Shown here piece by piece: positions 6,603 through 37,279 of a DNA stretch of 40,429 nt. This DNA comes from Candidatus Thalassarchaeum betae (GTDB lineage: Archaea; Thermoplasmatota; Poseidoniia; Poseidoniales; Thalassarchaeaceae). The stretch covers positions 1-40,429 of the forward strand of contig JAKUUP010000015.1 of assembly GCA_022447095.1 (NCBI GenBank), written 5' to 3'. How positions within the stretch are numbered: the first letter of the stretch is position 1; each line of letters begins with the position of its first letter. A program made the position numbers and the translations under genes. Under the pieces are notes generated by a model that searched no databases, was not told the DNA's origin, and saw only the letters and a list, made by a program, of their open reading frames with translations.

Positions 6603-6603
6603 T

Positions 6604-6627: not shown

Positions 6628-6682
6628 ACCGCAAAAGATGGCATGCGCCACCTTTCAAGTGATGAAGCACTGGCGAGGACGC

Positions 6683-7477: not shown

Positions 7478-7481
7478 TGAT

Positions 7482-8435: not shown

Positions 8436-9298
8436 CGGTCTTCGGAACCGGTCGAGCCAACGGTGGGATATCGATACTCCACGCCGCAGGGCTGGGCAAG
8501 GGCTGCTCCGTCGGCCTCCAACTAGAAACCCAGGTCAGTCTGGTCGAAGGGCCGGCTTTCGCACCACAGGACGAGCACAGGGTGCTCGACTCAGTGCTTG
8601 CTGTATGGGGCGAGTTCGGCTACCCGACGCCTGACGGCACCGGGTGGAGGGTCGAAACCGAGGTTCCTGTGGGGCAGGGTCTGAAATCGAGCGCTGCCCT
8701 AGCCTGCGCAGCCGCCCGGGCTCTTAACGAGGCATCGTGGACGGGGCTTTCCGACCCCCAGATAGTCGACATTGCAGTCGCTGCACAGAGAAGGTCGGGC
8801 TGCACCCTCACGGGCAGCATGGACGACGCATGGGCCGCAATCTCACCCGGGTGGAAGTTAGTAGACCCTGAGCAGGCTTCGCATGACTCAATTCTGCTTG
8901 AAGGCGACATCGAGACCGGCTTGTCCGTGCTCGTAGCCCTAAGGGGCCCTAGGAACGGGCGCGTCGAGCCTGAAGCCTTCGCAAATCAGTCGAAATTGTT
9001 TGAGCGGGCCCTGGCTTCGCTTTCCAGCGGCTCCATCTTCACAGCAATGTCCGCCAATGGGATGGCGGTGGCCGCGGCGACCGGGGATGACGAGGCCCTT
9101 CGAATTTGCAACTCGGCTATCGCCAGAGGCGCGATTTCTGCTGGGGTTACTGGCTCTGGACCAGCGATCGCAATCATCTGCTACGAACAGCACGCGGATT
9201 CGCTCGCCGAGTTCGTGCGCGAATCCGAAATGGAGGTCATAGCGGCGGCATTCACCCAATCCCGGATGCAGAGCGAGGAGGCGTCCCGATGGGAATGA
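8432..9298 (+). CDS. Shikimate kinase, archaeal GHMP type
   Basis: 288 residues. Archaeal shikimate kinases belong to the GHMP kinase superfamily and are unrelated to bacterial AroK. The GHMP ATP-binding motif is visible as VPVGQGLKSSAALACAAA at about residue 76. A conserved C-terminal stretch GAISAGVTGSGPAIAIIC fits the glycine-rich motif 3. The enzyme phosphorylates shikimate at the 3-hydroxyl. The ATG overlaps the stop of the 3-dehydroquinate synthase gene, and its own stop overlaps the start of chorismate synthase, so all four genes are tightly coupled. The dehydratase, shikimate dehydrogenase and EPSP synthase genes are not in this window. Confidence 0.92.
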   Translation: MTVFGTGRANGGISILHAAGLGKGCSVGLQLETQVSLVEGPAFAPQDEHRVLDSVLAVWGEFGYPTPDGTGWRVETEVPVGQGLKSSAALACAAARALNEASWTGLSDPQIVDIAVAAQRRSGCTLTGSMDDAWAAISPGWKLVDPEQASHDSILLEGDIETGLSVLVALRGPRNGRVEPEAFANQSKLFERALASLSSGSIFTAMSANGMAVAAATGDDEALRICNSAIARGAISAGVTGSGPAIAIICYEQHADSLAEFVRESEMEVIAAAFTQSRMQSEEASRWE

Positions 9299-16493: not shown

Positions 16494-17480
16494 TTAGACT
16501 TCCAATAGACCGCTGCCTGCTCGCTTCGTTAAGACCTTGACCATCTTGCGTCTGTACGACGGAGGATACCAGGTGTTCAGTACTGGCCTGACCGCTTTCC
16601 TAATCGCCTCGGCCAACTCGTTGACGCTGTCCTCGCCGCTCCAATCCCCGAGTGCAGCCTCAGCCTCCTCTGGGTGGTATCCTGGAATCGCCTCAAGCCC
16701 GGTAGTAGCGACTCTGAGTCCGGAAGGGACTCCATTGGAGCCAGATTTCCACAGTACTGCGACCCCCGCCTCGGGAAAATCCCATGATTCTCTCTGTCGC
16801 AGCTTCTGGTAGTCTCCCTGCCACTTCGAGTTGTCCTCAGGTAAGGTGAGATGAGTAACCAGTTCACCGGGCTCCAAAACGTTGCGAGTGATCCCATCTA
16901 GTTCAAAGAACTCGGTCAGAGGCATCGATCGTGTGCCAGTTGGGGTGGCTAGGTGGATGGTCGCGCCTAGGCACATCAGCACCGGGGCAAGGTCGGCTTG
17001 GTAGGTTGCGACGCAGAGCGTGTTCTGGTTTGGGATGACTCTGCAGTCGGCCCCAGTCCCGCAATCGCACTTGTAGCACCATTCAATGGACTCACGCCAC
17101 TCCTCAGACTGGTTGAACCAGAAGCATCGAGTGTCGAGGCAGATATTCCCACCTACCGTCCCCGATCGCCGCAGCATCACGCTTGCAACCGTGCCCGACA
17201 CCTTGGCAATCAGCGGGTGCACGGTATCGGACTCGACGAGGTCTTGCAACCGTACCATGGCTCCTATGTGGGTGTGTGTGAGTTCGGAGAGTTCCGGTAC
17301 TCCCGCCAGTGAGATTACGTGCGGCTTTGAGTTCAGGTGCCACTTGTAGTTAGGCAGTAGATCGGTACCGCCAGCTACCCAGTCAAACTCATGACCGGCT
17401 TGGGCGAGTCCGCCTGCGATTGACAGCGCCTCTTCTAGGGAGCCGGGAGTGTGCAGTGAGAAGGGTGGCATGCGCATCAT
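16494..17480 (-). CDS. Molybdenum hydroxylase FAD-binding subunit with 4-hydroxybenzoyl-CoA-reductase-like Fe-S insertion
   Basis: 328 residues of the CoxM/XdhB/HcrB family. FAD-binding motifs are VAGGTDLL (35-42) and SGTVGGNI (106-113). Directly after the second motif is a Cys-rich insertion with cysteines at 119, 135, 138, 140, 146 and 156. Ordinary xanthine dehydrogenase and CO dehydrogenase FAD subunits lack it. The beta subunit of 4-hydroxybenzoyl-CoA reductase has a comparable loop after the DTRC motif, where four cysteines hold an extra [4Fe-4S] cluster; here DTRCFWFNQSE is retained. The C-terminal CO-dehydrogenase-flavoprotein domain follows. The ATG overlaps the stop of the large subunit (ATGA). 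Such a cluster would fit low-potential electron input. Exact substrate is unknown. Confidence 0.9.
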   Translation of the reverse strand: MMRMPPFSLHTPGSLEEALSIAGGLAQAGHEFDWVAGGTDLLPNYKWHLNSKPHVISLAGVPELSELTHTHIGAMVRLQDLVESDTVHPLIAKVSGTVASVMLRRSGTVGGNICLDTRCFWFNQSEEWRESIEWCYKCDCGTGADCRVIPNQNTLCVATYQADLAPVLMCLGATIHLATPTGTRSMPLTEFFELDGITRNVLEPGELVTHLTLPEDNSKWQGDYQKLRQRESWDFPEAGVAVLWKSGSNGVPSGLRVATTGLEAIPGYHPEEAEAALGDWSGEDSVNELAEAIRKAVRPVLNTWYPPSYRRKMVKVLTKRAGSGLLEV

Positions 17481-20236
17481 TCATCACCTCGATGCCTGCG
17501 TTCAATGTGTTTCCAAGCGCTGCCAGCCAAGCGGGGGTTGTCGATGTACTCGCCACTGGGAGTCACACTGACGATCCAGCGTTCATCCTGTTCGTCGGCC
17601 GGAATCTCTGGATCAAACCCGAACAGCGCCCCGTTGTTGTAATCTGGCGGATCCGGGTCGGTGTTGCGAGCATCGTCACGCTCATCGTGCATGGCTGCAC
17701 GGGCCTCCAGAACACCTTGGAGATCTGAATACTCCAACTTGGGTGAAGTCAACTCGAGGGGATCGGAAACTCCCTCTTCCTTGCAACGCCCCTCGATCAT
17801 CTTGTGCATCCTGTCGGGGGTTATTGGCAACTCGCTGGTACGGACACCGACCGCATCGTGGACCGCGTTGCAGACCGCGGGTAGAATCGGTAGCAGTGGG
17901 CCCTCCCCGGCTTCCTTGGCCCCAAAGGGGCCTTCGGAGTCGTTCGACTCGACGATTATAGGCACAATCTCCGGCATCTCGTGTACCGTGGGAATCTTGT
18001 AATCGAGTAAGTCCGGGTTCAGCAGGTGCCCGTTTCTACCGTAACGCATCTCCTCGCTGAGTACCTGCCCCAGTCCCATGTGACACGAACCGATCATCTG
18101 CCCCTTCACCGCTAAGGGGTTGAGTGCCTTACCGCAGTCGTGCGCAGCCCACACCTTCAGTACTCGGGTCTGACCAGTCTCGACGTCGACCTTGACCTCA
18201 GCGACATAGGCCGAGAAGGAGTATGCTGGAGCGATTCCCGCACCTGCTCCCTTGTGCACCCGACCCATCGGCGGAGTCCTATAGGCACCGGATGAGACCA
18301 GAGCACCGGTTTCCTCTTGCGCCTTGTGAAGCGCCTCTAGATACGAGATTCCAACCGCGGGGTCGTCCTTGCGGTAGATGCGCCGGTCACCCATCACCAG
18401 CTTCTCGACCGGAGCATCGGTGACGTCAGCAGCAGCACCAAACAATTTCTGGCGGATTTCCATAGCCGCGGATATCGCAGCGTTGGCATTCATGAAGGTG
18501 ACACGCGATGAGTAGGATCCGAGATCGACCGGGGCGGTATCTGTCTCCCTGCTCCTGATTCTAATCATCTCCAACGGCAGTCCGAGGACCTCGGCCACTG
18601 ACTGGGCGACTACGGTGTCGGAGCCCTGACCTATTTCGGCAGCACCGGTGTGGACGGTCACGCCGCCGTCCATGTCAACCTTGAGGTGAACCGTGGCGTG
18701 TGGGAACTTGTTTGGCTCCCAGTGTATCGGAAGGCCACTTCCGGAGATGAAGAAGCCGCAGCCGATGCCTATTCCGTGACCATCGGGTAACTTGCGGAAC
18801 TTCTCTTTCCAACCCGAAGCCTCCCTGACCCTCTCTAGGCACTCTCGCATGCCAATGCTGGTGACTCTGAATCCGGTAATCGTGGCTGAGTTGGGAGGAA
18901 GCAGGTTAGCGAGTCTGAATGTGATAGGGTCGACTTCCAGCTGTTCGGCCAGATCGTCCATTCCGACCTCGACCGCGCAACGCGAGTTCACCGCTCCGTG
19001 GCCACGCATGGCGCCACTCGCGGGTTTGTTTGTCCACACCCTCGCGCCGGTGTAGTGGAAGGCTCCGATTTCGTAGGGAGCGGTGTGCAGGACACCGTTG
19101 TAGTAGGTGGTGACGTGACCGAACGAAGCGAAGGCACCGCCATCGATCAGAGCATCGGTCTCGATTCCGCACAGCCTGCCTTCGGAGTCAGCGTGCAGAT
19201 TCATCTCGATTCTTGAGGGATGCCTACCGCGATTGACCAAGAAGACCTCCTCGCGGTCGAAGTTAATTCTCACCGGCCGACCGGTCTTACGTGCTAGGAT
19301 GGCAGCGCACATCTCATGCGGAAACGGGTCGGACTTGCCACCGAATCCCCCGCCTACGAAAGTTCGGTAGACGTTGATCTGGTGCATAGGGATATCCAGC
19401 ACGTCGGCTAGTGCTCGGTGAACGTAGTGGGGAACCTGTTGGGGAGTGTACAGAGTCAGACGGCCAGACGGCTCCCAATGGGCGACGACTGCGTGCGGCT
19501 CGGTGAATCCATGGTTGGCTCCGGCAAACAGCCAGTCCGACTTGTGGCTGGCGACGGCGTTCTCAGTCATGCCGGCGATGTCGCCGAACTCCTGGAACAC
19601 TCTTTTCTGGATGTTCGAGGAGCCGATGTGGTACTTGCCTCTGTCATGAATAGGCTCGTCAGCATCATCTAGTCCCTTGCGCATGTCGTGAGTAGCATCC
19701 ATCTCCTCATATTCGACCTCTATCAGACGAGCTGCTTCCCTAGCGGACAACTCGTCTACGGCAGCGACGCAGGCGACCAAGTCTCCGACGTGGCGGACCT
19801 TGTCCCGTGCCATCGCGTGCTCATCTTTGGTCACAGGAAGCACACCGAAGGTACCGCTGGCATCTTGTCCCGTTGCGATGGCAGCCACACCAGGTAGTTC
19901 TAGCGCCCTCGTCGCGTCGATGGAGAGAACTCTGGCGTAATGGTGCTTCGAGCGAACTATCTTACCGATTAGTTCCCCTGGCAGGCGAACATCATCCCCA
20001 TATTGGGCCTGCCCGGTGACCTTCCAGCGGCCGTCGATGAGGGGAGTGGCCTTACCAACCGCAGAACCGGTCACCAGATCGTCGTGCTTGTGGCTCCCGG
20101 AACCTCTGGTCTTGGCGATACGGTCTTCGTCACGCGGCTCGCTGAACTTACGACTGCCTCCTGAGCCAGGTCGTGGAAATGGCAACTTGCCACCTTGCTG
20201 CCGGTAGCCAACAACCTTGTCTTTCTCATCGGCCAT
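17477..20236 (-). CDS. Molybdenum hydroxylase large (molybdopterin) subunit
   Basis: Catalytic Mo subunit of the xanthine oxidase family. Counting from the GTG at 20245, the molybdopterin motifs are GGGFGGK (298-304), AMRGHGA (412-418), GAAEIGQGSD (534-543) and DLGSYSSR (574-581). GAKEAGEG (775-782) holds the expected catalytic Glu (781). The AMRGHGAVNSR and DLGSYSSRVTF wording resembles the 4-hydroxybenzoyl-CoA reductase alpha subunit. At about 919-922 residues it is longer than that family (near 770), with roughly 60 extra residues at the N-terminus and 100 at the C-terminus. GTG 20245 directly abuts the small-subunit stop; ATG 20236, behind an AGGTG site, is preferred. It lies between the small and FAD subunit genes. 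Confidence 0.93.
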   Translation of the reverse strand: MADEKDKVVGYRQQGGKLPFPRPGSGGSRKFSEPRDEDRIAKTRGSGSHKHDDLVTGSAVGKATPLIDGRWKVTGQAQYGDDVRLPGELIGKIVRSKHHYARVLSIDATRALELPGVAAIATGQDASGTFGVLPVTKDEHAMARDKVRHVGDLVACVAAVDELSAREAARLIEVEYEEMDATHDMRKGLDDADEPIHDRGKYHIGSSNIQKRVFQEFGDIAGMTENAVASHKSDWLFAGANHGFTEPHAVVAHWEPSGRLTLYTPQQVPHYVHRALADVLDIPMHQINVYRTFVGGGFGGKSDPFPHEMCAAILARKTGRPVRINFDREEVFLVNRGRHPSRIEMNLHADSEGRLCGIETDALIDGGAFASFGHVTTYYNGVLHTAPYEIGAFHYTGARVWTNKPASGAMRGHGAVNSRCAVEVGMDDLAEQLEVDPITFRLANLLPPNSATITGFRVTSIGMRECLERVREASGWKEKFRKLPDGHGIGIGCGFFISGSGLPIHWEPNKFPHATVHLKVDMDGGVTVHTGAAEIGQGSDTVVAQSVAEVLGLPLEMIRIRSRETDTAPVDLGSYSSRVTFMNANAAISAAMEIRQKLFGAAADVTDAPVEKLVMGDRRIYRKDDPAVGISYLEALHKAQEETGALVSSGAYRTPPMGRVHKGAGAGIAPAYSFSAYVAEVKVDVETGQTRVLKVWAAHDCGKALNPLAVKGQMIGSCHMGLGQVLSEEMRYGRNGHLLNPDLLDYKIPTVHEMPEIVPIIVESNDSEGPFGAKEAGEGPLLPILPAVCNAVHDAVGVRTSELPITPDRMHKMIEGRCKEEGVSDPLELTSPKLEYSDLQGVLEARAAMHDERDDARNTDPDPPDYNNGALFGFDPEIPADEQDERWIVSVTPSGEYIDNPRLAGSAWKHIERRHRGDE

Positions 20237-20245
20237 CTGAATCAC

Positions 20246-20818
20246 CTAGGTGTCTCCACTGTATCCAGGATGAGGGTCACTCATCGCATCTGTCGCATCT
20301 GGCGTGCCTACGCCAGAGACGAGTATCTCCGAGGCAGCGCGCACGGAGTCCACAATCTGTTGGTAGCCGGTGCACCTGCACAGATTCCCCTCAATAGCGG
20401 ACTTGATTTCATCGTCTGAAGGGCTCGGATTCTCGTCTAGTAAAGCAGAGATGACGACTAGGAAGCCCGGCGTGCAGAAGCCGCACTGGCTCCCGCCGTA
20501 CTCAGTGAAAGTCTGCTGGATGGGGTGCAAGTGATGTCCGTCAGCGAGTCCCTCGATGGTGGTAATATCAGAGCCGTTGGCCTCTTGTGCAAGCATCAGA
20601 CAAGACAGTTTGGGCGTCCCATCGACCAGCACACTGCAGCACCCGCAAGTCCCCATGTCACAGCCTCGCTTGGTACCAAGGCTACCTGCTTGGTCACGCA
20701 AGACATCGAGCAGAATCGCATTGCTTTCGATATGCAAAGCAACCTCGGCTCCGTTCACACTGGCGGACCACGGAACCTCGTCCGGCGCCGGCAGCATTGG
20801 GAGTCGGAACTGAACCAT
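20246..20818 (-). CDS. Molybdenum hydroxylase small [2Fe-2S] subunit
   Basis: 190 residues. The N-terminal plant-ferredoxin-like domain binds one [2Fe-2S] cluster through GCDMGTCGCC and a later Cys in KLSCLML. The C-terminal helical domain binds the second through QCGFCTPG and NLCRCTGY. This two-cluster arrangement passes electrons between the Mo site and FAD in xanthine oxidase-family enzymes. About 20 extra residues precede the usual start, and the tail after residue 165 is Asp/Gly/Pro-rich. The gene opens the three-subunit set and is followed without a gap by the large subunit. A hairpin and the Bat-like regulator lie just upstream. Confidence 0.95.
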   Translation of the reverse strand: MVQFRLPMLPAPDEVPWSASVNGAEVALHIESNAILLDVLRDQAGSLGTKRGCDMGTCGCCSVLVDGTPKLSCLMLAQEANGSDITTIEGLADGHHLHPIQQTFTEYGGSQCGFCTPGFLVVISALLDENPSPSDDEIKSAIEGNLCRCTGYQQIVDSVRAASEILVSGVGTPDATDAMSDPHPGYSGDT

Positions 20819-22990: not shown

Positions 22991-23293
22991 ATGCCCGTAC
23001 GAGTGGGCCTAGCAATTGTAGGATCAGTATGGCTAACAATAGCATTCGCAGTAGGTTTCATTTGGTCTTGGATAGCAATGTTTGAGCAAGAAGAGTTGAC
23101 TAATGCAGTTCAGAATTCGTTGACTGTAATCCTAGTCATAGTGTTGATTTGGATTTCTATTGCAACTTTCATCCCAAGTCTGGAGAGACAGCCTGAAGTC
23201 GTACACGTTACAGAAAGTCACGATTCCAATTTTGTCGAAATATCACCCAGAGAAACTGTTAGTGATGACGATGAGGCCGAATTAGTCGAGTGA
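22991..23293 (+). CDS. Small membrane protein in an AT-rich patch
   Basis: From the ATG at 22991 the product is 100 residues with two membrane segments (about 5-28 and 42-62) and a C-terminal acidic tail ending DDDEAELVE. The frame stays open upstream to 22739, but that part is antisense to the protease signal-peptide region. A TTG at 22892 would add a basic amphipathic segment rich in Phe and Ile. Base composition is visibly more AT-rich than all neighbours. The stop overlaps the end of the convergent xdhC-like gene by 12 bases. I recognise no family; a recent acquisition or a fast-evolving lineage-specific gene is possible. Confidence 0.55.
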   Translation: MPVRVGLAIVGSVWLTIAFAVGFIWSWIAMFEQEELTNAVQNSLTVILVIVLIWISIATFIPSLERQPEVVHVTESHDSNFVEISPRETVSDDDEAELVE

Positions 23294-24124
23294 ATTGCTC
23301 CGCTTCTCAAGGGCCATAATCTCGGCACAGACGGCTACGGCGATCTCTTCTGGTGAGTCCGCTCCGATATCGAGCCCTATCGGGCATCTCACTGAATCGA
23401 CCGCTTTCTCGGAGATGCCTGATTCGATTGCCGCCTCGCGGAATGCATTCCACTTCACCGTCGATCCGATGGCACCGATTCTCGGTCTCGAGTCTCCCTC
23501 GAGTTTGCTCAGCATCCCCAGAAGCATCTCCTGATCCACGCCCCAGTCATGGCCGAGCAGCAGCACATCTGAGAATCTGCTGAGCGTATCACCGTCTTCG
23601 GAGTCGAGGAACTCCGAGACAGTATTGGCATGCAACTCGCTGGCGAACGGGTAACGATCCACATCGGCGTATTCCGCGCGCACATCGAAGACGCTGTGCG
23701 ACCAGCCGAGGGTATCGCAGACGATGGCAATTGCTCGCCCCACATGACCGCCACCCGCGATGAGTACGTGCGGCATAGGATCCATTACCTCCATCGCCAC
23801 TGTAACACGACCTCCGCACAGGCTGTCAAGAGGCGTCGCCTCTTCTCCCTTCGCATCCTTGTAGAGCACAAAAGTCTCGACCCTGCCGCCCTTCTCGCGA
23901 ACCTGCTGGCGCCCTCCGTTGAGCATACCTTTCAGGACGTCCTCCACTTTCATCTCCAAACCAGCACCGCCGATTGTGCCGAATCTGGCCCCATTCGGAG
24001 TCAGCGCCAGTCTAGCACCGGGTTTTCCCGGAACGCTGCCGCTGGCTTCGATTACCGATGCCATAGCCACGCTCTCGCCACGCTCCAGCCTCTCGAGAAC
24101 CCATGTTAGCACGGCGCGGGTCAT
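23282..24124 (-). CDS. xdhC: XdhC/CoxI-family molybdenum cofactor maturation protein
   Basis: 280 residues. The N-terminal XdhC domain contains MASVIEASGSVPGKPGARLA and the GTIGGAGLE motif. A Rossmann domain follows, beginning VLIAGGGHVGRAIA at about residue 123. The C-terminal part has RIGAIGSTVKW and CPIGLDIGADSPEEIAVAV, all standard for the family. XdhC binds the molybdenum cofactor, promotes its sulfuration and inserts it into xanthine oxidase-family enzymes. Its presence near the three hydroxylase subunits supports an active sulfurated Mo enzyme. It follows the ZIP transporter gene on the same strand. The 30 bases before its ATG closely match those before the acyl-CoA dehydrogenase gene. 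Confidence 0.93.
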   Translation of the reverse strand: MTRAVLTWVLERLERGESVAMASVIEASGSVPGKPGARLALTPNGARFGTIGGAGLEMKVEDVLKGMLNGGRQQVREKGGRVETFVLYKDAKGEEATPLDSLCGGRVTVAMEVMDPMPHVLIAGGGHVGRAIAIVCDTLGWSHSVFDVRAEYADVDRYPFASELHANTVSEFLDSEDGDTLSRFSDVLLLGHDWGVDQEMLLGMLSKLEGDSRPRIGAIGSTVKWNAFREAAIESGISEKAVDSVRCPIGLDIGADSPEEIAVAVCAEIMALEKRSNSLD

Positions 24125-25021: not shown

Positions 25022-25588
25022 TCACAGGTCCGCGAAAGCATCAGCAAGCCAGTCGAGGTCTTCGGGTCGATCCACATTCAGGTGTAAGTAAGGGTCCGCG
25101 ACATCGATACGAATCGGGTTGATTAGATTGCGCAGAGGGTCAGAAGGCGAACCTTTCACTACCTTAGCCGCATCCTCTGCAGACAGTAGTATTGGGTGTC
25201 CCCCTCTGCCTCCTTGAGTTGGGCAACTGGTGGAAGTCGAGTCCAGTAGAGTTTCTAGAGTGGAGTCCGAAAATCCCGGACGGTCTACCGGTACGACCAG
25301 AATTCTCTGCCCCGCACCCGTGCCTATGTGGCCGATTCCGACCTGCAGTGTACCAGTCCTTCCGGCTTCTGGGTCCGGGTTTACAACGACCCCGCAGTCG
25401 ACAGAGGTAGCAACCTCGTCGACGATTTCTTCGTTCGTGACCACCAGCGGATCGAGACCGTGGGCCTGCAATCTGCTGACGACCCATTCAACTAAACACC
25501 GCTCTCCTATTCTGACTAAGGCCTTCGGTTGACCGAGCCGCTCGCTAGAGCCAGCTGCAAGAACCACGCAGCCGATGTCACTGTTCAT
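25022..25588 (-). CDS. MobA/MocA-like molybdenum cofactor nucleotidyltransferase
   Basis: 188 residues from the ATG at 25588. The N-terminal nucleotide-binding motif LAAGSSERLGQPKALV, the metal-binding Asp in VVPVDRPGF and the GGRGGHPILLS loop are those of the MobA/MocA group. MocA adds CMP and MobA adds GMP to molybdopterin; xanthine oxidase-family enzymes commonly use the CMP form. Because this gene neighbours xdhC and is near the hydroxylase genes, a cytidylyltransferase role is more likely, but the two cannot be separated by reading alone. The frame extends to 25846 inside the acyl-CoA dehydrogenase gene; a GTGAGGTG site supports the shorter start. Confidence 0.88.
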   Translation of the reverse strand: MNSDIGCVVLAAGSSERLGQPKALVRIGERCLVEWVVSRLQAHGLDPLVVTNEEIVDEVATSVDCGVVVNPDPEAGRTGTLQVGIGHIGTGAGQRILVVPVDRPGFSDSTLETLLDSTSTSCPTQGGRGGHPILLSAEDAAKVVKGSPSDPLRNLINPIRIDVADPYLHLNVDRPEDLDWLADAFADL

Positions 25589-25596
25589 GCGACACC

Positions 25597-26742
25597 TCAC
25601 GGGCCGTCCAACAACTCCCGGCTGATGATGAGGCGCTGTATCTGGCTGGAACCCTCGAATATCTGAACGACCTTCGCACCGCGCATCCTCCGTGCTACAG
25701 GGTACTCCTCCGAGTATCCATATCCGCCGAAGACCTGCACTGCGTCGGTGGTGACCTCCATCGCCATGTCGGCGGAGAAGCGCTTGGCGTGAGACGCCTC
25801 GATGGTGTTTCGCTCGCCCGAGTCGGCCTTCTTCGCGGCCCGCCACGTCAGAAGCCTAGCAGCCTCTACCTTGGTCGCCATGTCGGCTATCATGAATGAG
25901 ATTGCTTGGTGTCGGTAGATTGGCTTTCCGAAAGTGCTCCTCTCGTTGGCGTACTGCAGAGCCTCCTCCATGGCGCCTCTGGCGTTGCCGACGGCGTTCG
26001 CGGATATCGCAGGTCTGGAGAGATCGAAGGCGTTCATAGCGTTCATCCAGCCACTGTTTTCCTCACCGCCGATAAGGTTCTCCGCAGGTACGCGAACATC
26101 GTTGAAGTCGACCGCGCGCGTGTCGGAGCAGCGCTGACCCATGTTTTCCTCCTTCTTACCGAGAACTATGCCGGGGCTGTCTGCGTCGATGATGAAACTA
26201 CTCATTCCCCTGTATCCTGCTTCTTTGTCGGTGTATGCTAGAACGAAGAACCAATCAGCGTGTCCGGCTCCTGTGATCCACATTTTGCTGCCGTTGACGA
26301 CGTAGTCGTCACCGTCTCTGACGGCTTGCGTCCGAATCGACTGCACGTCGCTCCCCGCCCCGGGTTCAGTCACGCAGTAGGACGCGATGCAGCCGTCGGC
26401 CACCTTGGACAGGTAGCGCTGCTTCTGATCCTCGGTGCCTCCTGTGATGATCGGATAGGAAGCCAGCATGGTGCTGCCCGATGCAGTGGCGAAACCCGGA
26501 TCCCCCCATCCAAATTCCTCGCAGATTAGGACCTCTTCGAATGAACCCATCCCATAGCCGCCGTACTCTTCGGGAATCATCACTGTGAGGAGGCCGAGTT
26601 CGTGGGCCTTGCGAATCGCTTCCAGCGGGAATGAACTCTCACGGTCCCATTTCTCAGCGTGTGGTTGGACTTCGGCAGCGGCGAACTCGTGAGCCGCCTC
26701 CTGAAGCATACGCTGTTCTTCTGACAGTGCGAAGTCTACCAT
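25597..26742 (-). CDS. Acyl-CoA dehydrogenase
   Basis: 381 residues, the normal length for the family. The FAD-binding signature CVTEPGAGSDVQSIRTQA, the NGSKMWITGA block, the FDLSRPAISANAVG segment and the C-terminal GGYGYSEEYPVARRMR are clear. The catalytic Glu is in IFEGSSQIQR. It oxidises an acyl-CoA thioester to the 2-enoyl-CoA and passes electrons to an electron-transfer flavoprotein; chain length or branched/aromatic preference cannot be read. It is followed after eight bases by the MobA/MocA-like gene, which ties it physically to the molybdenum hydroxylase maturation genes and suggests shared catabolic use. Confidence 0.95.
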   Translation of the reverse strand: MVDFALSEEQRMLQEAAHEFAAAEVQPHAEKWDRESSFPLEAIRKAHELGLLTVMIPEEYGGYGMGSFEEVLICEEFGWGDPGFATASGSTMLASYPIITGGTEDQKQRYLSKVADGCIASYCVTEPGAGSDVQSIRTQAVRDGDDYVVNGSKMWITGAGHADWFFVLAYTDKEAGYRGMSSFIIDADSPGIVLGKKEENMGQRCSDTRAVDFNDVRVPAENLIGGEENSGWMNAMNAFDLSRPAISANAVGNARGAMEEALQYANERSTFGKPIYRHQAISFMIADMATKVEAARLLTWRAAKKADSGERNTIEASHAKRFSADMAMEVTTDAVQVFGGYGYSEEYPVARRMRGAKVVQIFEGSSQIQRLIISRELLDGP

Positions 26743-26790: not shown

Positions 26791-27744
26791 CTATTGAGGC
26801 AGGAGGAACAGAAATGCCATGTACGCTAGGTAACCGGCGATCATCGTCGTCCCCACACGTCTGCCGATGCGTCGCTCGTCAAGCAGCATGGCTACGATGA
26901 AGCCCGATGTGAGGACGACGACCCAGATGTCTCTCCCAGCGAACTCCGGCGCTATGATTATCCCACCTGCGTAGGCTGAAGTCAGACCTAGGATGCCTAG
27001 GATGTTTATGACATTGGATCCTAGTATGTTGCCTATGGCAACGCCCCCCTGCCCCCTTAGTCCTGCGACCAGAGTCACCGCCAACTCAGGGAGGGAGGTT
27101 CCCAGTGCCACAACTGAGAGGCCGATGACGGACTCGGAGATACCGTAGTCTATCGCGAGGCCGGTGGCCCCCTCGACCAGCATCTCAGCTCCTGTCCAGA
27201 TCATGTATCCTCCCACGGCGGTGGTCGGAATCGCTAGCAACACGTTTTCAGGCAGCCACGACTTACTGCCCCCGACGTCGACCCCCTCTGCCTTGGAGGT
27301 GCGGTATGAGTAAGTGTAGTAGGCGGCAAGACCCAGTAACATGATGACGCCGAACTGCCCTGTGATTTTCCCGATGAGCACGGTGGCCAGCAGGATCACG
27401 GTGGCGACGGCGACTGCTATGGCGTCGCGACGAACGCCCGGCCCAGGGTCAGATGCCGCACCGAGCACGGCAGCGGTCCCTAGTACCAGCATCACATTGG
27501 CCACGTTGGAGCCCAGAACTCCTCCAACGGCGATATCCGGAGTATCATTTCCAACTGCCTCCAAGGCCACTGCAAGTTCCGGTAGCGAAGTTCCTATGGC
27601 AACGACGGTGAACCCCACGAGGAGGGGGGAAACTCTCATTCTGTTGGCGATAGTGACCGCTCCCTGAACGACGAACTCACCTCCGAGCATCAGCAGGACG
27701 AAACCGGCTATGACAAGCATCATCTCTGTCTCTGCCAAGGGCAT
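26791..27744 (-). CDS. Na+/Ca2+ exchanger family protein (CaCA, YrbG-like)
   Basis: 317 residues with about ten membrane segments in two inverted halves. Each half has the ion-binding alpha repeat: GTSLPELAVALEAV followed by GSNVANVMLVLG in the first, and GTSLPELAVTLVAG followed by GSNVINILGILG in the second. The Glu in each GTSLPEL motif is the conserved ion ligand. Such proteins export calcium in exchange for sodium or protons. It lies 60 bases behind the E1 gene on the same strand and is closed by a hairpin; no regulatory clue is visible. Confidence 0.94.
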   Translation of the reverse strand: MPLAETEMMLVIAGFVLLMLGGEFVVQGAVTIANRMRVSPLLVGFTVVAIGTSLPELAVALEAVGNDTPDIAVGGVLGSNVANVMLVLGTAAVLGAASDPGPGVRRDAIAVAVATVILLATVLIGKITGQFGVIMLLGLAAYYTYSYRTSKAEGVDVGGSKSWLPENVLLAIPTTAVGGYMIWTGAEMLVEGATGLAIDYGISESVIGLSVVALGTSLPELAVTLVAGLRGQGGVAIGNILGSNVINILGILGLTSAYAGGIIIAPEFAGRDIWVVVLTSGFIVAMLLDERRIGRRVGTTMIAGYLAYMAFLFLLPQ

Positions 27745-27804: not shown

Positions 27805-30681
27805 TCAGGTACACAACCTCTCGATGTGACTAGACACCAACTCGAATGTAGGAATGGTGTGGTCCTCCAGAGTAGGTGAGAACGGGACCGGCGTGTCTAG
27901 TGCCCCGATGACCACAGGAGGCGCCTCCAAGCACCAAAACGCCTCCTCAAGGATACGACTGCTCACGGTGTTTCCCAAGCCCCCGGTCCACTGCGATTCC
28001 TGAAGAACAACGAGACGTCCGGTCCGCCGCACCGACTCGATGCAGGTCCGTGCGTCGAAGGGGAGTATAGTACGAAGGTCTACGACTTCGACTTCGATTC
28101 CCTTCTTGGCGACCTCGGAAGCCGCCTTCATGGCCACGTGGACCATCGCACCCCAAGTGACGATAGTCAGATCTTTGCCACCCCTAACGACGCGAGCCTT
28201 GCCCAAAGAGGTCTCTCCAGCAGCGATTCGCTGGTGGACAGACTCCGTGTCAACAAGTTGGTTGATCGACTCACCCCAACCGGTCAAACCCCCTCTCAGT
28301 GCGTACAATCCAAGGTGTTCGAGGAAGACGACGGGGTCAGGGAGCTCATGTGACTCGATGAGCATGTCGTAGGCGTCTTGCGGAGTACTCGGGAAGACGA
28401 TAACCAGTCCCGGGTCGTTGATGAACCAAGACTCGATCATGTTTGCGTGAAACGGTCCACTGCGGGTCTTGGCGCCGAGAGGTATCCTCACGGTTATGGG
28501 CACGTTGGCGCCCCAGCGCCAGCGTAGTTGGGCCGCGTTGTTTACCAGAGCATTCATCGCGAGAGCGGCGAAGCCACCGAACTGAATCTCGGCGATCGGG
28601 CGCATCCCACCCAAGGCTGCACCTGTAGCTGAGTGGACTATGACGGATTCGGACAGAGGCATGTCGAGTAACTTGTCCGAATGCCCCTTGGCGTTCAGGG
28701 CAAGCATCATTCCGAAAGCACCAGCGATTTCCATGTCCTCCCCCATGAACACTACCCTGTCACCATACTTCTCGGCAATTGAGACCATCCCATTCTGGAT
28801 GGCTCGGCTGTAGGTCCAAGTGTTGGAGGCCTCGGAGAACTCCAGCGAACTCTCACCGGGAGCAAGAGGGGAGTCGATCATAGCTAACTCGCTCTGGAAT
28901 CTGTCGTACTGTTCGGCATGGCTTGCAGCGTCATGCAGACTCGTCACACCTTTGGTGACAGTGTTACCCTCAGGCCATGGCATCTCCATCATCTCGTCTC
29001 GGGCTGCGTCTACCAAGGCCTGCTCCCTCTCCTCTATCGATTTCAGTTCCTTATCGTCCGCACCGAACTGGATCAGTAATTCCCTGTGATTTGGGAGAGG
29101 GTCCTTCTCGGCCCAGTAAGTTAGCAGCTCTCGGTCAACGTAGCCGGGCGGGTTCCCCGAGACCGCACCGAGATACAGATCGTCATGGTGGTGTGCGTGC
29201 CCGCAGCCCCGCATCGTCTCGACGTGTATCAGGGTCGGTCCACCACCAGCGGTCGCGAACTCCCTCGCGACGGCAGTGGAAGCGTAGAACAGTCCGGGGT
29301 CCGAACCATCAATCGTCCATGCTGGCATACCCATAGCGTGACCCTTGTCGCCATAGGTCTCGACTCCGGATTGCGCGGTCACAAAGGTGTCGAGGGCGAT
29401 CTGGTTGTTCTGTATCATGAAGGAGATTGGCAGTCCACGGGCGCCTGCAAGGTTCATCGCCTCCCAGAACTCGCCGCTGCTGCTGCATCCCTCTCCAACG
29501 GGGGCGAGGTGAAAACGGTCTACTGAGAGCCTAGAAGCAGCGAGGGCGATGCCAGTGGTAGTGGCACTTGCTATTGGCAGGGGGGCAGTAGGTGGAAGCA
29601 CACCCTTCTCCCAGTTGCCGATATGCAGGTCCCTTCCACCAGAATCCTCTTGCCCACCGTCCATGTACGATCCCGATTTCCCCATCTGAGCGGCGAAGAC
29701 CTCGGTTGGGGTCTGACCCATGGCCAGTGCCAGTCCGACATCCCTGATCATCGGAGCAACGATGTCGGCACGAGGGCGCTCACTCTCTGGAAGGTCGATG
29801 GCCCTGCGCATAGCGCTAGCGCACGCGACCACCCCCTCCTGCCAGGTCGAACGGAATCCCTTACCTCCGAAGGTGCCGCCGTCAGGAGTAGGGATTCCGT
29901 TCGTTGAGAGGTCCTTGAGATGCTCGTCAACAAGCCTCGTCTGCATCATCATCCTCTGCCACTCAATGCGTTGCTCTAGGGTGATTGAAGCATAATGAGA
30001 AATCCTTCTCAAGCATAGGACGATGTCGAGCAAAAGCCTTGCAGTACGTCGTTCCAGATGCAGTAAACCCGACCTTCTTGGTATAACTTCGGCATCCACC
30101 AGAGAGGATAGAGCGGGAGTCAGCAGGCGCTCTTGCAAGGACTCTTCAAAGGAACTGACATAACTCTTGGAGAATTTGTGGAAGGAAACTCCTCCGAATG
30201 ATTCCGGGGCCCCCATCTCGTCCCAACAGGAGGCCACCGTGTCGAGGTGCCCGTCATGTCTCTCGGCAACGAATCTCAGTAACTCGTCTCGGGCCCATGA
30301 GGAATTCAGAGGAGTTGGAAATTTGAGTGCGGAGCTCGGCTCCCAGCCGGCGCCCCATATGGTCGGCAGGTCACTCTGGGAAACGGTCCCGACAGCTTCG
30401 GATAGAATCGAGCCAGCCAACTCGCCCCTTCGCTGCGATTCTTTATCCCGACGGACAGCCTCATCCTCGAGATCACTCAGGCCCAGAGTGGAACTGCGCT
30501 CCCAGATATGCAAGGCCCGATGCCTCCCCTGTCCGCTCGAAGAACGGTCGAGGGCAGCTCGTATCCGTTTACCGCAGTGCTCGCACCTCCTGTCGAGACT
30601 CTCGGTCGCCCCCCTAGTTCTCCATGCTTGATGACGCTCGCAGGAGGGGCATTTCCAAACCCCCTGACGGATAATCGCCAT
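27805..30681 (-). CDS. 2-oxoacid dehydrogenase E1, alpha-beta fusion with N-terminal zinc ribbon
   Basis: 958 residues. The N-terminus has CPSC (11-14) and CEHC (33-36), a zinc-ribbon pair, then about 170 residues without a recognised domain. An E1-alpha module follows at about 210-545. Its thiamine diphosphate motif reads GEG (396-398), 26 residues, NN (425-426); the usual first element is GDG. The E1-beta module covers about 620-958, with GEDMEIAGAFG, the MPLSESVIVHSATGAALGG block and RIPLGAKTRSGPFHA. Fused E1 proteins act in pyruvate or branched-chain 2-oxoacid dehydrogenase complexes; substrate is not readable. No E2 or E3 gene is near. A TATA box sits for a leaderless transcript starting at the ATG. 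Confidence 0.92.
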   Translation of the reverse strand: MAIIRQGVWKCPSCERHQAWRTRGATESLDRRCEHCGKRIRAALDRSSSGQGRHRALHIWERSSTLGLSDLEDEAVRRDKESQRRGELAGSILSEAVGTVSQSDLPTIWGAGWEPSSALKFPTPLNSSWARDELLRFVAERHDGHLDTVASCWDEMGAPESFGGVSFHKFSKSYVSSFEESLQERLLTPALSSLVDAEVIPRRSGLLHLERRTARLLLDIVLCLRRISHYASITLEQRIEWQRMMMQTRLVDEHLKDLSTNGIPTPDGGTFGGKGFRSTWQEGVVACASAMRRAIDLPESERPRADIVAPMIRDVGLALAMGQTPTEVFAAQMGKSGSYMDGGQEDSGGRDLHIGNWEKGVLPPTAPLPIASATTTGIALAASRLSVDRFHLAPVGEGCSSSGEFWEAMNLAGARGLPISFMIQNNQIALDTFVTAQSGVETYGDKGHAMGMPAWTIDGSDPGLFYASTAVAREFATAGGGPTLIHVETMRGCGHAHHHDDLYLGAVSGNPPGYVDRELLTYWAEKDPLPNHRELLIQFGADDKELKSIEEREQALVDAARDEMMEMPWPEGNTVTKGVTSLHDAASHAEQYDRFQSELAMIDSPLAPGESSLEFSEASNTWTYSRAIQNGMVSIAEKYGDRVVFMGEDMEIAGAFGMMLALNAKGHSDKLLDMPLSESVIVHSATGAALGGMRPIAEIQFGGFAALAMNALVNNAAQLRWRWGANVPITVRIPLGAKTRSGPFHANMIESWFINDPGLVIVFPSTPQDAYDMLIESHELPDPVVFLEHLGLYALRGGLTGWGESINQLVDTESVHQRIAAGETSLGKARVVRGGKDLTIVTWGAMVHVAMKAASEVAKKGIEVEVVDLRTILPFDARTCIESVRRTGRLVVLQESQWTGGLGNTVSSRILEEAFWCLEAPPVVIGALDTPVPFSPTLEDHTIPTFELVSSHIERLCT

Positions 30682-30856: not shown

Positions 30857-31981
30857 TTAGTATTTGGGGATAGAAGAATCAATTGTGTCTGACCACTCAT
30901 GAATGCCTCCACGGAGGTTGTAGACGTGGTCTTCGGACCAGCCAGCCACCGCGAGAAATCGTGCCACAGCAGCTGACCTCCCTCCAGTTCTACAGTAGAC
31001 GACAACGTCTCGGTCTCTCGGGATCTCGTCGGTGCGAGTTGGAATCAACAGGTGCTGTATACGAAGATCCGTCCCGTCGAGAGATACGATCATCTCTTCT
31101 TCCCTCCTTCTGACATCGAGCAGGAAAGGGGTCCATCCCCTCTGCATGCGTTCTATGTATTCGGCAGGGTTGATTTCTCGCACATCGCCCGCCTCCTCCT
31201 TTCTTGGTTGGGCTGAGCAGTCTATGGTCTCCTCGGAGAGTTCAGTCACAGTCTGACGAGTAGGATCGTGGGAGAACGATAGGGAGCGCATTCCCATGCT
31301 GAGCGTGTCGATGACCAGCAGCCTGCCGCTGAGTGGCTCGCCGACCCCTAGAATCACTTTGATGGCCTCAGTGGCCTGGATAGAACCAACTATCCCGGGC
31401 AGTACTCCTAGGACTCCTGCCTCAGCGCAGTTGGGCGCGAGCTCTGCCGGCGGGGCCTCGGGAAACAGGTCACGGTAGTTTGGCCCACCGTCGAGGTTGA
31501 ATGTGGTGATTTGACCTTCAAACCTATGTATGCTGCCGAAAACCCATGGCTTGCCTAGGATTTCGCATGCATCGCTGATGAGGTACCTCGTGGAGAAGTT
31601 GTCTGAGCCGTCGATTACCAAGTCGTAACCGCCAATGATACTCAGGGCATTGTCCACATCGAGCCTCAGTTCGTAAGATTCGACCTCGATCTCCGGATTG
31701 AGGTCGGTGAGTCTGCGCTCAGCGGATTCGACCTTCGGATCTCCTAGGGACGCAGTGCCGTGAAGCACCTGCCTCTGGAGATTCGTGATATCAACAGAAT
31801 CGTCGTCTATCACTCCTATCCTGCCTACGCCAGCCGCAGCGAGGTACAGCAGTGCAGGTGAGCCGAGCCCCCCTGCTCCAACAACCAGGACAGAGGCCTC
31901 ATTGAGCAACTTCTGACCCTCTGGACCGACTTCTGGAAGGGTCAGATGCCTCGCGTATCGCGCACTCTGCTCGTCGGGCAT
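30857..31981 (-). CDS. MoeB/ThiF-type E1-like activating protein with C-terminal rhodanese domain
   Basis: About 374 residues from the ATG at 31981 (ATG 32008 is also possible). The N-terminal adenylation domain shows GAGGLGSPALLYLAAAG, DDDSVDITNLQRQVLHG and CAEAGVLGVLPGIVGS. The C-terminal rhodanese domain has its active Cys in VVYCRTGGRSAAVARFL. Such two-domain proteins adenylate and thiocarboxylate ubiquitin-like sulfur carriers (MoaD, ThiS, SAMP) for molybdopterin, thiamine or tRNA thiolation. The zinc-binding cysteines normal in MoeB appear to be missing: NYRDLFPE stands where CxxCFPE is expected, and DPTRQTVTEL where CPxCG is expected. It could supply sulfur for molybdopterin needed by the hydroxylase, an inference. 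Confidence 0.9.
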   Translation of the reverse strand: MPDEQSARYARHLTLPEVGPEGQKLLNEASVLVVGAGGLGSPALLYLAAAGVGRIGVIDDDSVDITNLQRQVLHGTASLGDPKVESAERRLTDLNPEIEVESYELRLDVDNALSIIGGYDLVIDGSDNFSTRYLISDACEILGKPWVFGSIHRFEGQITTFNLDGGPNYRDLFPEAPPAELAPNCAEAGVLGVLPGIVGSIQATEAIKVILGVGEPLSGRLLVIDTLSMGMRSLSFSHDPTRQTVTELSEETIDCSAQPRKEEAGDVREINPAEYIERMQRGWTPFLLDVRRREEEMIVSLDGTDLRIQHLLIPTRTDEIPRDRDVVVYCRTGGRSAAVARFLAVAGWSEDHVYNLRGGIHEWSDTIDSSIPKY

Positions 31982-32042
31982 ATCACGCCGAGAGGGCCAA
32001 TACAACATGGGCACTTCGGTCGGAAGCCCACTTTGGCGCCAC

Positions 32043-32978
32043 TCAATCGTGGTTTTCCAGCCACTTTTCGGCATCCATGGCCGCCCGGCACCCCATTCCA
32101 GCGGCGGTGACTGCCTGCCGGTATCGCTTGTCGACGACGTCTCCGGCGGCGAACACCCCGGCAACACTCGTCATGGTGTGCTCGGTGTGCAGGATGTACC
32201 CGGAGTCATCCATATCGACTTCACCCTCGAGGAAACCTGTCATCGGCTTGTGACCGATTGCGATGAAGGCTCCAGTACACGAGACCTTCTCTTCGGAACC
32301 GTCTCGGGGGTCCTCTAGTATGGCTCCAGTCAGACCGTTCTCGTCAGAGAGCCAACTCTTGACTTGCCTGAATGTCTTGATATCGATCTTGGGGTGATTG
32401 GCGGCGCGTTCGTACATCACCTTAGACGCTCGAAAACCCTCGCGCCGGTGGACGATGGTGACCTTGCTCGCAAATCTGGTGAGAAAGGTGGCCTCCTCCA
32501 TCGCAGAGTCGCCGCCACCGACCACGATAACCTCCTCCTCGCGGAAGAAAGCGCCATCACAGGTCGCGCAGGTGGAGATTCCTCTACCCTTGTACTCGTC
32601 CTCACCCTCGACGCCGAGCCAGATGGCCTCCGCACCGGTGCAGATGATGACAGCCTCGGCTCGAAACTCCTCACCTTCGACCCAGACCCCGAAAGGCCGC
32701 TCGGAGAAGTCGACTCTCTCAACGTTCTTGTCGTGAACCTCTAGGCCGAAGCGCTCGGCCTGCTCGCGCATGTGAATCATCATCTCCGGGCCTCCTATGC
32801 CGGAGGGATATCCTGGGAAGTTCTCTACATCGGAGGTCAGCATGAGTTGGCCGCCGGACATGTAACCGGCGAACATTAGAGGATCTAGCAGCGCACGGGC
32901 GGCATATAGACCGGCGGTGTAGCCTGCAGGCCCGGAGCCGATGATTATCACATTGCGCACTTCATCGCCCACGGGCAT
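32043..32978 (-). CDS. trxB: Thioredoxin reductase (TrxB)
   Basis: 311 residues from the ATG at 32978; a TTG at 33002 would add eight residues. FAD motif IIIGSGPAGYTAGLYAAR, redox-active CATC in STCATCDGAFF, NADPH motif VVGGGDSAMEEATFL and the C-terminal FAAGDVVDKRYRQAVTAAG with the FAD-contacting Asp are all present. The enzyme reduces thioredoxin with NADPH. The MoeB-rhodanese gene follows on the same strand with a gap of about 60 bases, so the two may be co-transcribed. Confidence 0.96.
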   Translation of the reverse strand: MPVGDEVRNVIIIGSGPAGYTAGLYAARALLDPLMFAGYMSGGQLMLTSDVENFPGYPSGIGGPEMMIHMREQAERFGLEVHDKNVERVDFSERPFGVWVEGEEFRAEAVIICTGAEAIWLGVEGEDEYKGRGISTCATCDGAFFREEEVIVVGGGDSAMEEATFLTRFASKVTIVHRREGFRASKVMYERAANHPKIDIKTFRQVKSWLSDENGLTGAILEDPRDGSEEKVSCTGAFIAIGHKPMTGFLEGEVDMDDSGYILHTEHTMTSVAGVFAAGDVVDKRYRQAVTAAGMGCRAAMDAEKWLENHD

Positions 32979-35821: not shown

Positions 35822-36217
35822 TTACTCTACCATCGCCGCGACCGCGCCGACAGCGGCGCGAGCGTGTGATTCTAGACGCGGTTCGATGTGCTCGGGCTCA
35901 GCGCCCGGGCCGATTATCCCGAGCCCGATTGGCTTGTTGTGAGAGATTTGTAACTCTATGATCGCCTTGGTCACGGACTGCCCCATGACGAGCCCGTGAT
36001 CGGTCTGCCCCCGCTCGATGATGCCGAGCACTACAGCGCCATCGACATCCTCTCTCTGAAGCATTCTGTCGAGAGCCAGAGGAGCCTCCATGGAGCCGGG
36101 CACCCAAGCCACATCAGCGACCCCCCAGTTCTTGGCTTCGGTTTCATCACGGGCGAACTCAAGCATCTTCTCGACGTGCTCGCGGTGGAAAGCACCGCAG
36201 ACGATTCCGAGATTCAT
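35822..36217 (-). CDS. ribH: 6,7-dimethyl-8-ribityllumazine synthase
   Basis: 131 residues. Motifs are WVPGSMEAPLAL, GIIERGQTDHG (with the catalytic His) and KPIGLGIIGPG, which correspond to the substrate-binding loops of lumazine synthases. It condenses 5-amino-6-ribitylaminouracil with 3,4-dihydroxy-2-butanone 4-phosphate. At 131 residues it is at the short, archaeal end of the family. Its ATG overlaps the riboflavin synthase stop (ATGA), and it is the last gene of the rib operon. Confidence 0.94.
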   Translation of the reverse strand: MNLGIVCGAFHREHVEKMLEFARDETEAKNWGVADVAWVPGSMEAPLALDRMLQREDVDGAVVLGIIERGQTDHGLVMGQSVTKAIIELQISHNKPIGLGIIGPGAEPEHIEPRLESHARAAVGAVAAMVE

Positions 36218-36819
36218 CTTCCTGACTCCAGCATTCGGGCGACGGTTTCGACCACCGCTTGAGTCATTGGATCGACCTCGATGTTAACCAAGGCACCTTC
36301 GGCCTTGCTGCCAATTGTGGTCCTCTCTAGAGTCTCCGGAATCAAATGTACATCGAATGACTCATCTCTGACACTACCGACGGTGAGGCTGATTCCGTCG
36401 ACGGCGATGAAGCCTTTCTCCATCACAAATGGTCTGATTCCAGAAGAGATAGCAATCCCCATGTCGACACCCTCGCCGACCTCGCTGTGACTCAGCACCT
36501 CCGCTGTGGCCATGACGTGCCCAGACAGGACGTGCCCTCCTAACTCGTCGCCCATACGCAGTGCCCGCTCGAGGTTCACTGAATCACCCACATCTAGGCC
36601 TCCTAGTGTCGAGCGCTCCAGCGTCTCGGGTACCGCATCGAAGTCTACGGTGCTACCGTCCATCCCAGTAGCAGTCAGGCAGACGCCGTCGACGGATACG
36701 CTAGCACCCATCTCGAGCTCATCGCTCAGACTACTCATCTTGATGGAGAAGCGACGTACTGAGTCGCCATCCGCTATCGAGATCACCTTTCCGGTGCCCT
36801 GAACGATGCCGGTGAACAT
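36214..36819 (-). CDS. ribE: Riboflavin synthase, bacterial two-domain type
   Basis: 201 residues from the ATG at 36819, preceded by a strong GAGGAGG ribosome site. It begins with the diagnostic MFTGIVQGTGKV and carries two lumazine-binding repeats: SVDGVCLTATGM with PETLERSTLGGL in the first, and AVDGISLTVGSV with PETLERTTIGSK in the second. It dismutates two lumazines to riboflavin and the pyrimidine precursor. Many archaea instead use an unrelated synthase that resembles lumazine synthase, so this gene probably came from bacteria. An extended frame to 36906 lies in ribL and is not used. Neighbours ribL and ribH overlap or abut it. Confidence 0.95.
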   Translation of the reverse strand: MFTGIVQGTGKVISIADGDSVRRFSIKMSSLSDELEMGASVSVDGVCLTATGMDGSTVDFDAVPETLERSTLGGLDVGDSVNLERALRMGDELGGHVLSGHVMATAEVLSHSEVGEGVDMGIAISSGIRPFVMEKGFIAVDGISLTVGSVRDESFDVHLIPETLERTTIGSKAEGALVNIEVDPMTQAVVETVARMLESGR

Positions 36820-36820
36820 C

Positions 36821-37279
36821 TCAATCCTCCTCGTAGGGGCCACCTTCGTTACTAGGCCAGATATCGAGGATCCTAGAGATGATCTTACGAGTTCCATCCA
36901 AGTCATCGGAGAGCCCTTCTACCCTGACGACCTCGATGTTGCCGTGGCCCCGGCTCTCCAAACCTGTTCGAATGGCATCAATTGAGTGCTTTTGGTCATA
37001 GCCTAGAGCAATCACATCGGGCTTGACGACATCGAGGATATCGAAGATAGGGAGAGTAGGAGGATTGCCCACGACGGCCTCGTCCACCGGCTTCAGCCCA
37101 GAGACCATCCTACAACGAAGATCGTGGCCCGTGATCGGCTCGTGCTTCTGCTTGCGCACCGTGTCATCGTGAGCCACCACTACGACCAACTCATCACCCA
37201 GCGACTTAGCCTGCTCGACGTAGTGCAGGTGCCCTGCATGAAGGAGGTCGAAGACGCCGACTGCCATCACGCGGACCAT
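36821..37279 (-). CDS. ribL: FAD synthetase, archaeal RibL type
   Basis: 152 residues of the cytidylyltransferase-like superfamily. The nucleotide-binding HxGH is HAGH in FDLLHAGHLHYVEQAK, with ALGYDQKHS and a C-terminal GTRKIISRIL (in place of the ISTT-type motif) also visible. Archaeal RibL transfers AMP from ATP to FMN to make FAD. Here its placement inside a riboflavin operon supports that role over other nucleotidyltransferases of the superfamily, such as glycerol-3-phosphate cytidylyltransferases. A GAGGGTGTGAG stretch precedes the ATG. The stop lies one base ahead of the riboflavin synthase ATG, so they are translationally coupled. Confidence 0.9.
   Translation of the reverse strand: MVRVMAVGVFDLLHAGHLHYVEQAKSLGDELVVVVAHDDTVRKQKHEPITGHDLRCRMVSGLKPVDEAVVGNPPTLPIFDILDVVKPDVIALGYDQKHSIDAIRTGLESRGHGNIEVVRVEGLSDDLDGTRKIISRILDIWPSNEGGPYEED

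Follow-up and report, generated by a model that had tools for sequence, protein, structure and literature searches.

The window analysed here, a stretch of 40,429 nucleotides of contig JAKUUP010000015.1 from Candidatus Thalassarchaeum betae (assembly GCA_022447095.1), carries on its minus strand one open reading frame (ORF) in which both halves of the E1 component of a 2-oxo acid dehydrogenase are joined behind a long N-terminal extension. The organism belongs to the order Poseidoniales, or Marine Group II (MGII), which is described in PMC6461757 as comprising the most abundant planktonic archaea of the surface ocean and as protein-degrading heterotrophs. A first-pass annotation of the window had proposed an E1 alpha-beta fusion with a zinc ribbon at its N-terminus and an altered thiamine diphosphate (ThDP) motif. 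The features of the gene and its surroundings are collected in Table 1.

Table 1. Position of the single-chain E1 gene, its parts, its neighbours and the separate E2 cluster of the same genome. Residue numbers refer to the 958-residue protein.
Feature	Position	Strand	Basis or remark
Single-chain E1 alpha-beta ORF, 958 residues	27805..30681	minus	ATG at 30681, stop at 27805-27807
Zinc-ribbon-like part, residues 1-43, C11-x2-C14 ... C33-x2-C36	30553..30681	minus	four predicted short strands
Basic stretch (DRSSSGQGRHR...IWER) and predicted helix 68-92, residues 44-95	30397..30552	minus	only where the ribbon is present
Helical module without known family, residues 100-235	29977..30384	minus	alignment; whole order; model confidence (pLDDT) mostly 84-98
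E1 alpha part, residues 236-600	28882..29976	minus	Pfam E1_dh; VIA fold match
ThDP/metal motif GEG ... QNN (Glu397, Asn425, Asn426), residues 396-426	29404..29496	minus	alignment
RGCGHAHHHDDLYLG loop (HAHHHDD), residues 491-505	29167..29211	minus	corresponds to RxxxHSxSDD in canonical E1 alpha; extra residues after it
E1 beta part with Glu678 and His745, residues 618-958	27808..28830	minus	Pfam Transket_pyr, Transketolase_C; VIA fold match
Upstream neighbour, ThiF/MoeB and rhodanese-like protein	30857..32167	minus	family in 40/40 loci
Downstream neighbour, calcium/sodium antiporter family	26791..27744	minus	TIGR00367 above cut-off; 39/40 loci
Downstream neighbour, acyl-CoA dehydrogenase	25597..26742	minus	33/40 loci
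lipA - E1a - E1b - E2 - E3 - lipB-like cluster, uninterrupted run	L031 7085-13745 (G000 contig C23)		holds the only E2 of the genome

The presence of both halves in one ORF could be confirmed by reading the minus strand from 30681 to 27805 and by Pfam, which placed E1_dh at residues 304-568 (123 bits), Transket_pyr at 623-793 (77 bits) and Transketolase_C at 827-946 (123 bits), each above the Pfam cut-off and in the order alpha then beta. For residues 1-303, no domain was found in the Pfam search. The structure predicted for the protein, a cofactor-free model, had a predicted local distance difference test score (pLDDT) of 82.7 and a predicted template modelling score of 0.85. Its alpha part matched the alpha chain of the Thermus branched-chain 2-oxo acid dehydrogenase (BCKDH; 1umb_A) with a VIA Z of 34.0 and a root mean square deviation (rmsd) of 2.3 over 320 residues, covering residues 221-581 of the model, and its beta part matched 9a5n_A (Z 37.8, rmsd 2.2 over 314 residues) and 1w85_B (Z 37.1). 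Domains, folds, catalytic residues and metal motif all fit the alpha/beta class of 2-oxo acid dehydrogenase E1, to which the protein is assigned on the basis of sequence and model.

The CPSC...CEHC pattern of a zinc ribbon is indeed present at the N-terminus, with the Cys pairs C11/C14 and C33/C36. The unassigned N-terminal residues are present as well; their number was put at about 170 and is nearer 190, as the E1 alpha fold begins near residue 221-235 when the model is compared with known chains. As the first-pass annotation had suspected, no counterpart was matched elsewhere for the combination of ribbon, unassigned N-terminal part and E1 fusion with GEG.

Distribution and phylogeny

A homologue of the fusion, full-length or split between contigs, was found in 58 of the 60 genomes of the order that were searched. 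It was lacking only in G001 (67% complete) and G033 (60% complete), and all 25 genomes with a completeness of at least 90% carry it. Since a homologue is kept in 58 of 60 genomes, the fusion is not the product of chance or of a frameshift; order-wide conservation, at about 60% identity, rules out a chance or annotation artefact. In a draw of 194 genomes from the phylum, the fusion was present in 48/48 genomes of the order, and 0/146 genomes outside it (five of these in the same class) gave a match of comparable strength, the best E-value being 2.5e-80 outside and 7e-196 or better inside. The matches outside the order that were read consisted of two adjacent genes, save for one fusion (L200). 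From these comparisons, a single-chain E1 with this architecture appears specific to the MGII archaea.

A pattern search of genome_contigs returned 330 stretches, 328 of which encode a relative; the 80 named loci referred to below are the best 80. Among these, the closest records, with up to 86% full-length identity, come from Candidatus Thalassarchaeum and other MGII genomes. One record titled Candidatus Neomarinimicrobiota bacterium (L116, NZWI01000049.1) holds the fusion at 75% identity and is probably a mislabelled MGII contig. In a named Thalassarchaeaceae record (L177) the gene is frameshifted, with 64 stops in the matched range, probably through an assembly error. One scan of viral_contigs with six peptide patterns yielded no relative of the fusion, and a viral origin was set aside.

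In a tree of the fusions and 33 other E1 proteins, covering PDH/BCKDH-like (PDH, pyruvate dehydrogenase) types of the Thermoplasmatota and acetoin-like types (the type names are our own), a single branch of 1.64 substitutions per site with a support of 95 splits off the fusions. The result used here is this branch separating the 33 others, as the size of the clade at that branch depends on the rooting. Single-chain E1 proteins fall at several places in the tree, and the MGII fusions stand apart from all 33. A common descent of the MGII fusion with the clade of bacterial single-chain E1 was not recovered; descent from the two-gene E1 encoded on contig C23 of the same genome is contradicted by the tree.

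Active site and ThDP motif

The residues R313, N426, R491, H495, D649, E678 and H745 are identical in 18/18 aligned fusions and in 33/33 other E1. His745 and His495 correspond to the His residues that serve reductive acylation in PDH and BCKDH. Around these residues the site is rebuilt. Ile312, which precedes the Arg, is fixed in the fusions, where the 33 others have Tyr (26), His (6) or Phe (1), and Ile428, after NNQ, is likewise fixed, where the others have Trp (16), Tyr (11) or Phe (6). Asp431 is fixed in the fusions and absent from the 33 others (Ser in 28). In the loop, His497-His498-His499 is fixed, and its third position is Asp in 33/33 others. The sequence RGCGHAHHHDDLYLG occurs in 52/52 proteins of the order and in 79/80 named loci, and PMIRD in 52/52 and 80/80. 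Ile312, Ile428, Asp431 and the HAHHHDD loop are thus invariant or nearly so in the family, and none of them occurs in the 33 other E1. When 72,556 plasmid records were searched with the loop region, only six weak matches came up.

Alignment with 1w85_A and 1um9_A, two E1 alpha chains of solved structure, confirmed that GEG replaces GDG, with Glu397 (of G396-E397-G398) in the place of the Asp. This Glu is invariant in the fusions (52/52 proteins of the order, 80/80 named loci). In the 33 other E1 the acid is Asp in 30 and Glu in three, namely the two-gene E1 of Peribacillus asahii and of Haladaptatus halobius and, as GES, the single-chain E1 of Parabacteroides; the 3/33 is not an unbiased rate, because some of these loci were retrieved with a GEG-bearing query. 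The canonical E1 of the same phylum has GDG in 21/21 loci (Glu in 0/21). The GEG change is therefore old and fixed in the fusions and not unique to them. The concern that it marks lost or altered metal binding is not supported, as Glu also occurs in other E1, including intact operons such as that of Peribacillus asahii, where the GEG E1 lies with E2 and E3. In addition, a published numbering scheme for ThDP decarboxylases, which belong to another family, lists Asp in 91% and Glu in 7% of the sequences surveyed at the corresponding position (PMC3534367). Judging from the alignment, Glu397 may stand in for Asp as ligand of the metal. A literature search for a GEG variant of the GDG ThDP motif found no account of it.

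N-terminal region

The ribbon is predicted to form strands at residues 6-10, 17-21, 28-32 and 39-43; zinc binding is suggested by the Cys pattern. The CxxC..CxxC pattern was present in 24/52 proteins of the order and, counting one member cut by a contig end, in 25/52. Compared protein to protein, the ribbon is 37-72% identical to its counterparts in 24 others of the 60 genomes. Residues 1-95, comprising ribbon, basic stretch (residues 46-55 of low model confidence) and helix, travel together in these 25 proteins. In a tree of the remaining protein, the 25 bearers form a single clade (support 0.90) inside one family and with no ribbon-less member, which points to a single, late gain of the ribbon. 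As the enzyme is kept in the 27/52 members that lack the ribbon, the ribbon is not needed for the basic reaction, and it would be a later accessory of one clade. On a docking of E2 or nucleic acid by the ribbon, as suggested in the first-pass annotation, the data spoke neither for nor against.

A stand-alone ribbon gene was not found in the ribbon-less genera (weak matches only, E 0.002 or worse). The best match in the window's own genome (contig C2) is part of a 126-residue protein that, judged by eye, may be TFS/RPB9-like.

The helical module of the window protein matched no Pfam family and, in a profile comparison with solved chains, nothing better than E 0.38. As a fold, residues 1-240 gave a best Foldseek E of 1.0 and a best VIA Z of 5.8 over 82 residues (6eqo_B), below the level of trust. 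The helical module is probably an assembly or regulatory part.

Comparison with known E1 enzymes

With the two-gene E1 of PDH and BCKDH (1w85, 1umb, 1dtw, 1ols) the fusion has in common the Pfam domains, the fold of both halves, the universal catalytic residues and QNN, and it differs from them in being a single chain, in its 235-residue N-terminal extension, in GEG, in Ile312, Ile428, Asp431 and the HAHHHDD loop with its extra residues, and in the lack of an adjoining E2. The two-gene E1 of the C23 cluster (L031) is of the same enzyme class and resides in the same cell; its motif is IGDGASAEGD and its loop the canonical HSSSDDP, and it falls among other Thermoplasmatota E1 in the tree and lies beside E2, E3, lipA and a lipB-like gene. 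The E1 of Peribacillus asahii and Haladaptatus halobius are like the fusion in the Glu of the ThDP motif and, unlike it, are encoded by two genes and keep the canonical Tyr/His before Arg and an aromatic residue after NN.

The claim that the fusion itself is unusual was not borne out, since fused E1 ORFs were read in 5/33 sampled loci. Four of these are bacterial and measure 677-717 residues (Parabacteroides, Paracoccus, Shinella and Sinorhizobium; 692-717 in the last three), and that of Parabacteroides is named 'alpha-ketoacid dehydrogenase subunit alpha/beta' in RefSeq. They have the same alpha-then-beta order, and Parabacteroides likewise has Glu (GES), but they lack ribbon and helical module and take a separate place in the tree. 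Unlike in MGII, an annotated E2 gene adjoins the fusions of Parabacteroides, Paracoccus and Shinella; the Sinorhizobium record is unannotated there, and its next ORF reads as E2. The fifth, L200 (genome G103, same phylum, other family), is a shorter alpha-beta fusion of 682 residues with GDG that groups with the GEG E1 of Haladaptatus (support 100). A single-chain E1 is thus known from bacteria and from other members of the phylum. Both fusion and GEG fall within known variation; the real novelty is the order-wide helical module together with the invariant rebuilt active site. This front section and active site seem to belong to MGII alone. No published account of the MGII fusion was found in a literature search that included the accessible parts of PMC9723583, PMC11237513, PMC6461757 and PMC3904984 and that covered subscription journals thinly.

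Partner complex and genome context

The first-pass annotation had advised locating E2 and E3, and both were found in the C23 cluster, away from the fusion. The genome has one 2-oxoacid_dh E2, and lipA and E3 of the cluster exceed their NCBIfam cut-offs (lipB-like was named by reading). E2 is single-copy in 56/60 genomes of the order and was not found in four; it is present in all 25 genomes that are at least 90% complete. Two further lipoyl-fold proteins of the genome show the biotin-carrier motif EAMKM and are taken as biotin carriers.

The neighbourhood of the fusion was compared between the window and 39 further loci, 40 in all; the lower counts in Table 1 and below are not proof of absence, because some loci stop at contig ends. 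A thioredoxin reductase lies near the fusion in 40/40 loci, a MobA-like gene in 37/40 and an XdhC-like gene, named by reading, in 33/40. Contig C45 of the same genome holds a cluster of carboxyltransferase, enoyl-CoA hydratase, biotin carboxylase and biotin carrier, below NCBIfam cut-offs, that by our own identification and pathway reading resembles a leucine-breakdown cluster. A search for a SucA-type E1 in the genome (TIGR00239) returned only the C23 alpha gene, with 16.9 bits against a cut-off of 770; the fusion was not among the matches, so that its identity as a SucA-type 2-oxoglutarate dehydrogenase E1 was rejected.

Other genes of the window were named by reading or by eye. What reads as a three-part molybdenum hydroxylase (CoxM/CoxL/CoxS-like) is encoded at 16494-20818, 23282-24124 and 25022-25846 (minus), with XdhC-like and MobA-like accessories further along. 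At 35822-37279 (minus) lie overlapping genes resembling those for lumazine synthase, a bacterial-type riboflavin synthase (start MFTGIVQGTG inside the ORF) and a cytidylyltransferase, and at 6599-10395 (plus) a probable archaeal shikimate-pathway run of aldolase, 3-dehydroquinate synthase II, GHMP-type shikimate kinase and chorismate synthase.

Discussion

We favour, with about an even chance of being right, an active single-chain ThDP-dependent E1 that acylates the only E2 of the genome and acts on a substrate differing from that of the C23 E1, a branched-chain-like 2-oxo acid being the first choice. The alpha half would bind ThDP and a divalent metal via Glu397 and Asn425/Asn426; in the beta half, Glu678 would activate the thiazolium and His745 would serve acyl transfer. 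From a 2-oxo acid and ThDP the enamine would form with release of CO2; the acyl group would then be passed to the lipoyl domain of the E2 of the C23 cluster, the putative partner. Because the pocket differs (Ile312, Ile428, HAHHHDD loop), a substrate other than that of the C23 E1 is expected. The gene context hints at an amino-acid-derived 2-oxo acid of the branched-chain or a similar kind, through the synteny with acyl-CoA dehydrogenase (33/40 loci) and the leucine-breakdown-like C45 cluster, which would need BCKDH.

Several observations weigh against this proposal. Neither E2 nor E3 lies beside the fusion gene of the window, and an adjoining E2 is missing in 40/40 loci. The acyl-CoA dehydrogenase reaches no specific NCBIfam cut-off, the conserved block includes genes unrelated to keto acids (MoeB-like, antiporter, XdhC-like), and gene order is widely kept in this order of archaea. 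Two 2-oxoacid:ferredoxin oxidoreductases of the genome could take some of the keto acids. No family-specific NCBIfam model reaches its cut-off for the fusion, the model has a pLDDT below 50 at residues 428-432, 438-440 and 494-513, and the loop for substrate and cofactor carries invariant changes that could signal another reaction.

That the last point leads away from E2 altogether, to a stand-alone decarboxylase or a carboligase (acyloin, acetoin or transketolase-like) that acts on a new substrate, we regard as unlikely, though it gains weight because the loop is rebuilt and the E2 neighbour is missing. The long separate branch of the fusions and a whole-chain fold that also resembles transketolase and DXS are in its favour, while the His pair presumed to serve reductive acylation is kept in every aligned fusion. 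The joint presence of E2 and fusion in all 25 near-complete genomes also speaks against it, a weak argument because both are simply universal. With a similarly small probability, the protein may represent a separate ThDP family, in which the rebuilt pocket and HAHHHDD loop would serve a substrate or reaction foreign to known E1 (a dicarboxylic or polar 2-oxo acid might be involved, or else a second metal) and the helical module would be the docking part for a second E1 on a shared E2 core.

The division of labour might also be reversed, with the fusion serving the ordinary step from pyruvate (or 2-oxoglutarate) and the C23 two-gene E1 as the branched-chain enzyme. The beta part finds its best single PDB sequence match in a Bacillus (Geobacillus) PDH E1 beta, with BCKDH chains ranking behind it; this and the lack of a SucA-type E1 in the genome point in this direction. 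Yet PDH and BCKDH beta chains are tied as fold matches (VIA Z 36.4-37.8) and do not separate the two, and the fusion falls far under the PDH equivalog cut-offs, with 129 of 411 bits for TIGR03181 and 200 bits against 321 or 454 (PRK11892, 454), where the C23 alpha chain comes much nearer (339 vs 411). The two ferredoxin oxidoreductase systems can moreover serve both acids, and we consider this assignment improbable. A regulatory or nucleic-acid-bound enzyme, acting through ribbon and helical module, is much less probable still: a general CxxC-CxxC ribbon is followed by an Arg/Lys-rich stretch and weakly matches TFIIB-type and other zinc ribbons, but these matches have E-values of only 0.001-0.08 in one or two of 37 members, more than half of the order's proteins do without the ribbon, and nothing links it to DNA or RNA. 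Least credible, at a very small probability, is an inactive pseudo-E1. Asp is the usual metal ligand, but the remaining universal catalytic residues are invariant, Glu is natural in other E1 inside E1-E2-E3 operons, and the protein is conserved throughout the order.

For the Poseidoniales, each near-complete genome examined thus has a second, single-chain E1 alongside one complete canonical complex, and a GEG thiamine motif does not signal a dead enzyme. If both E1 share the E2, nature would offer here a simple example of one core served by two E1 of different build.

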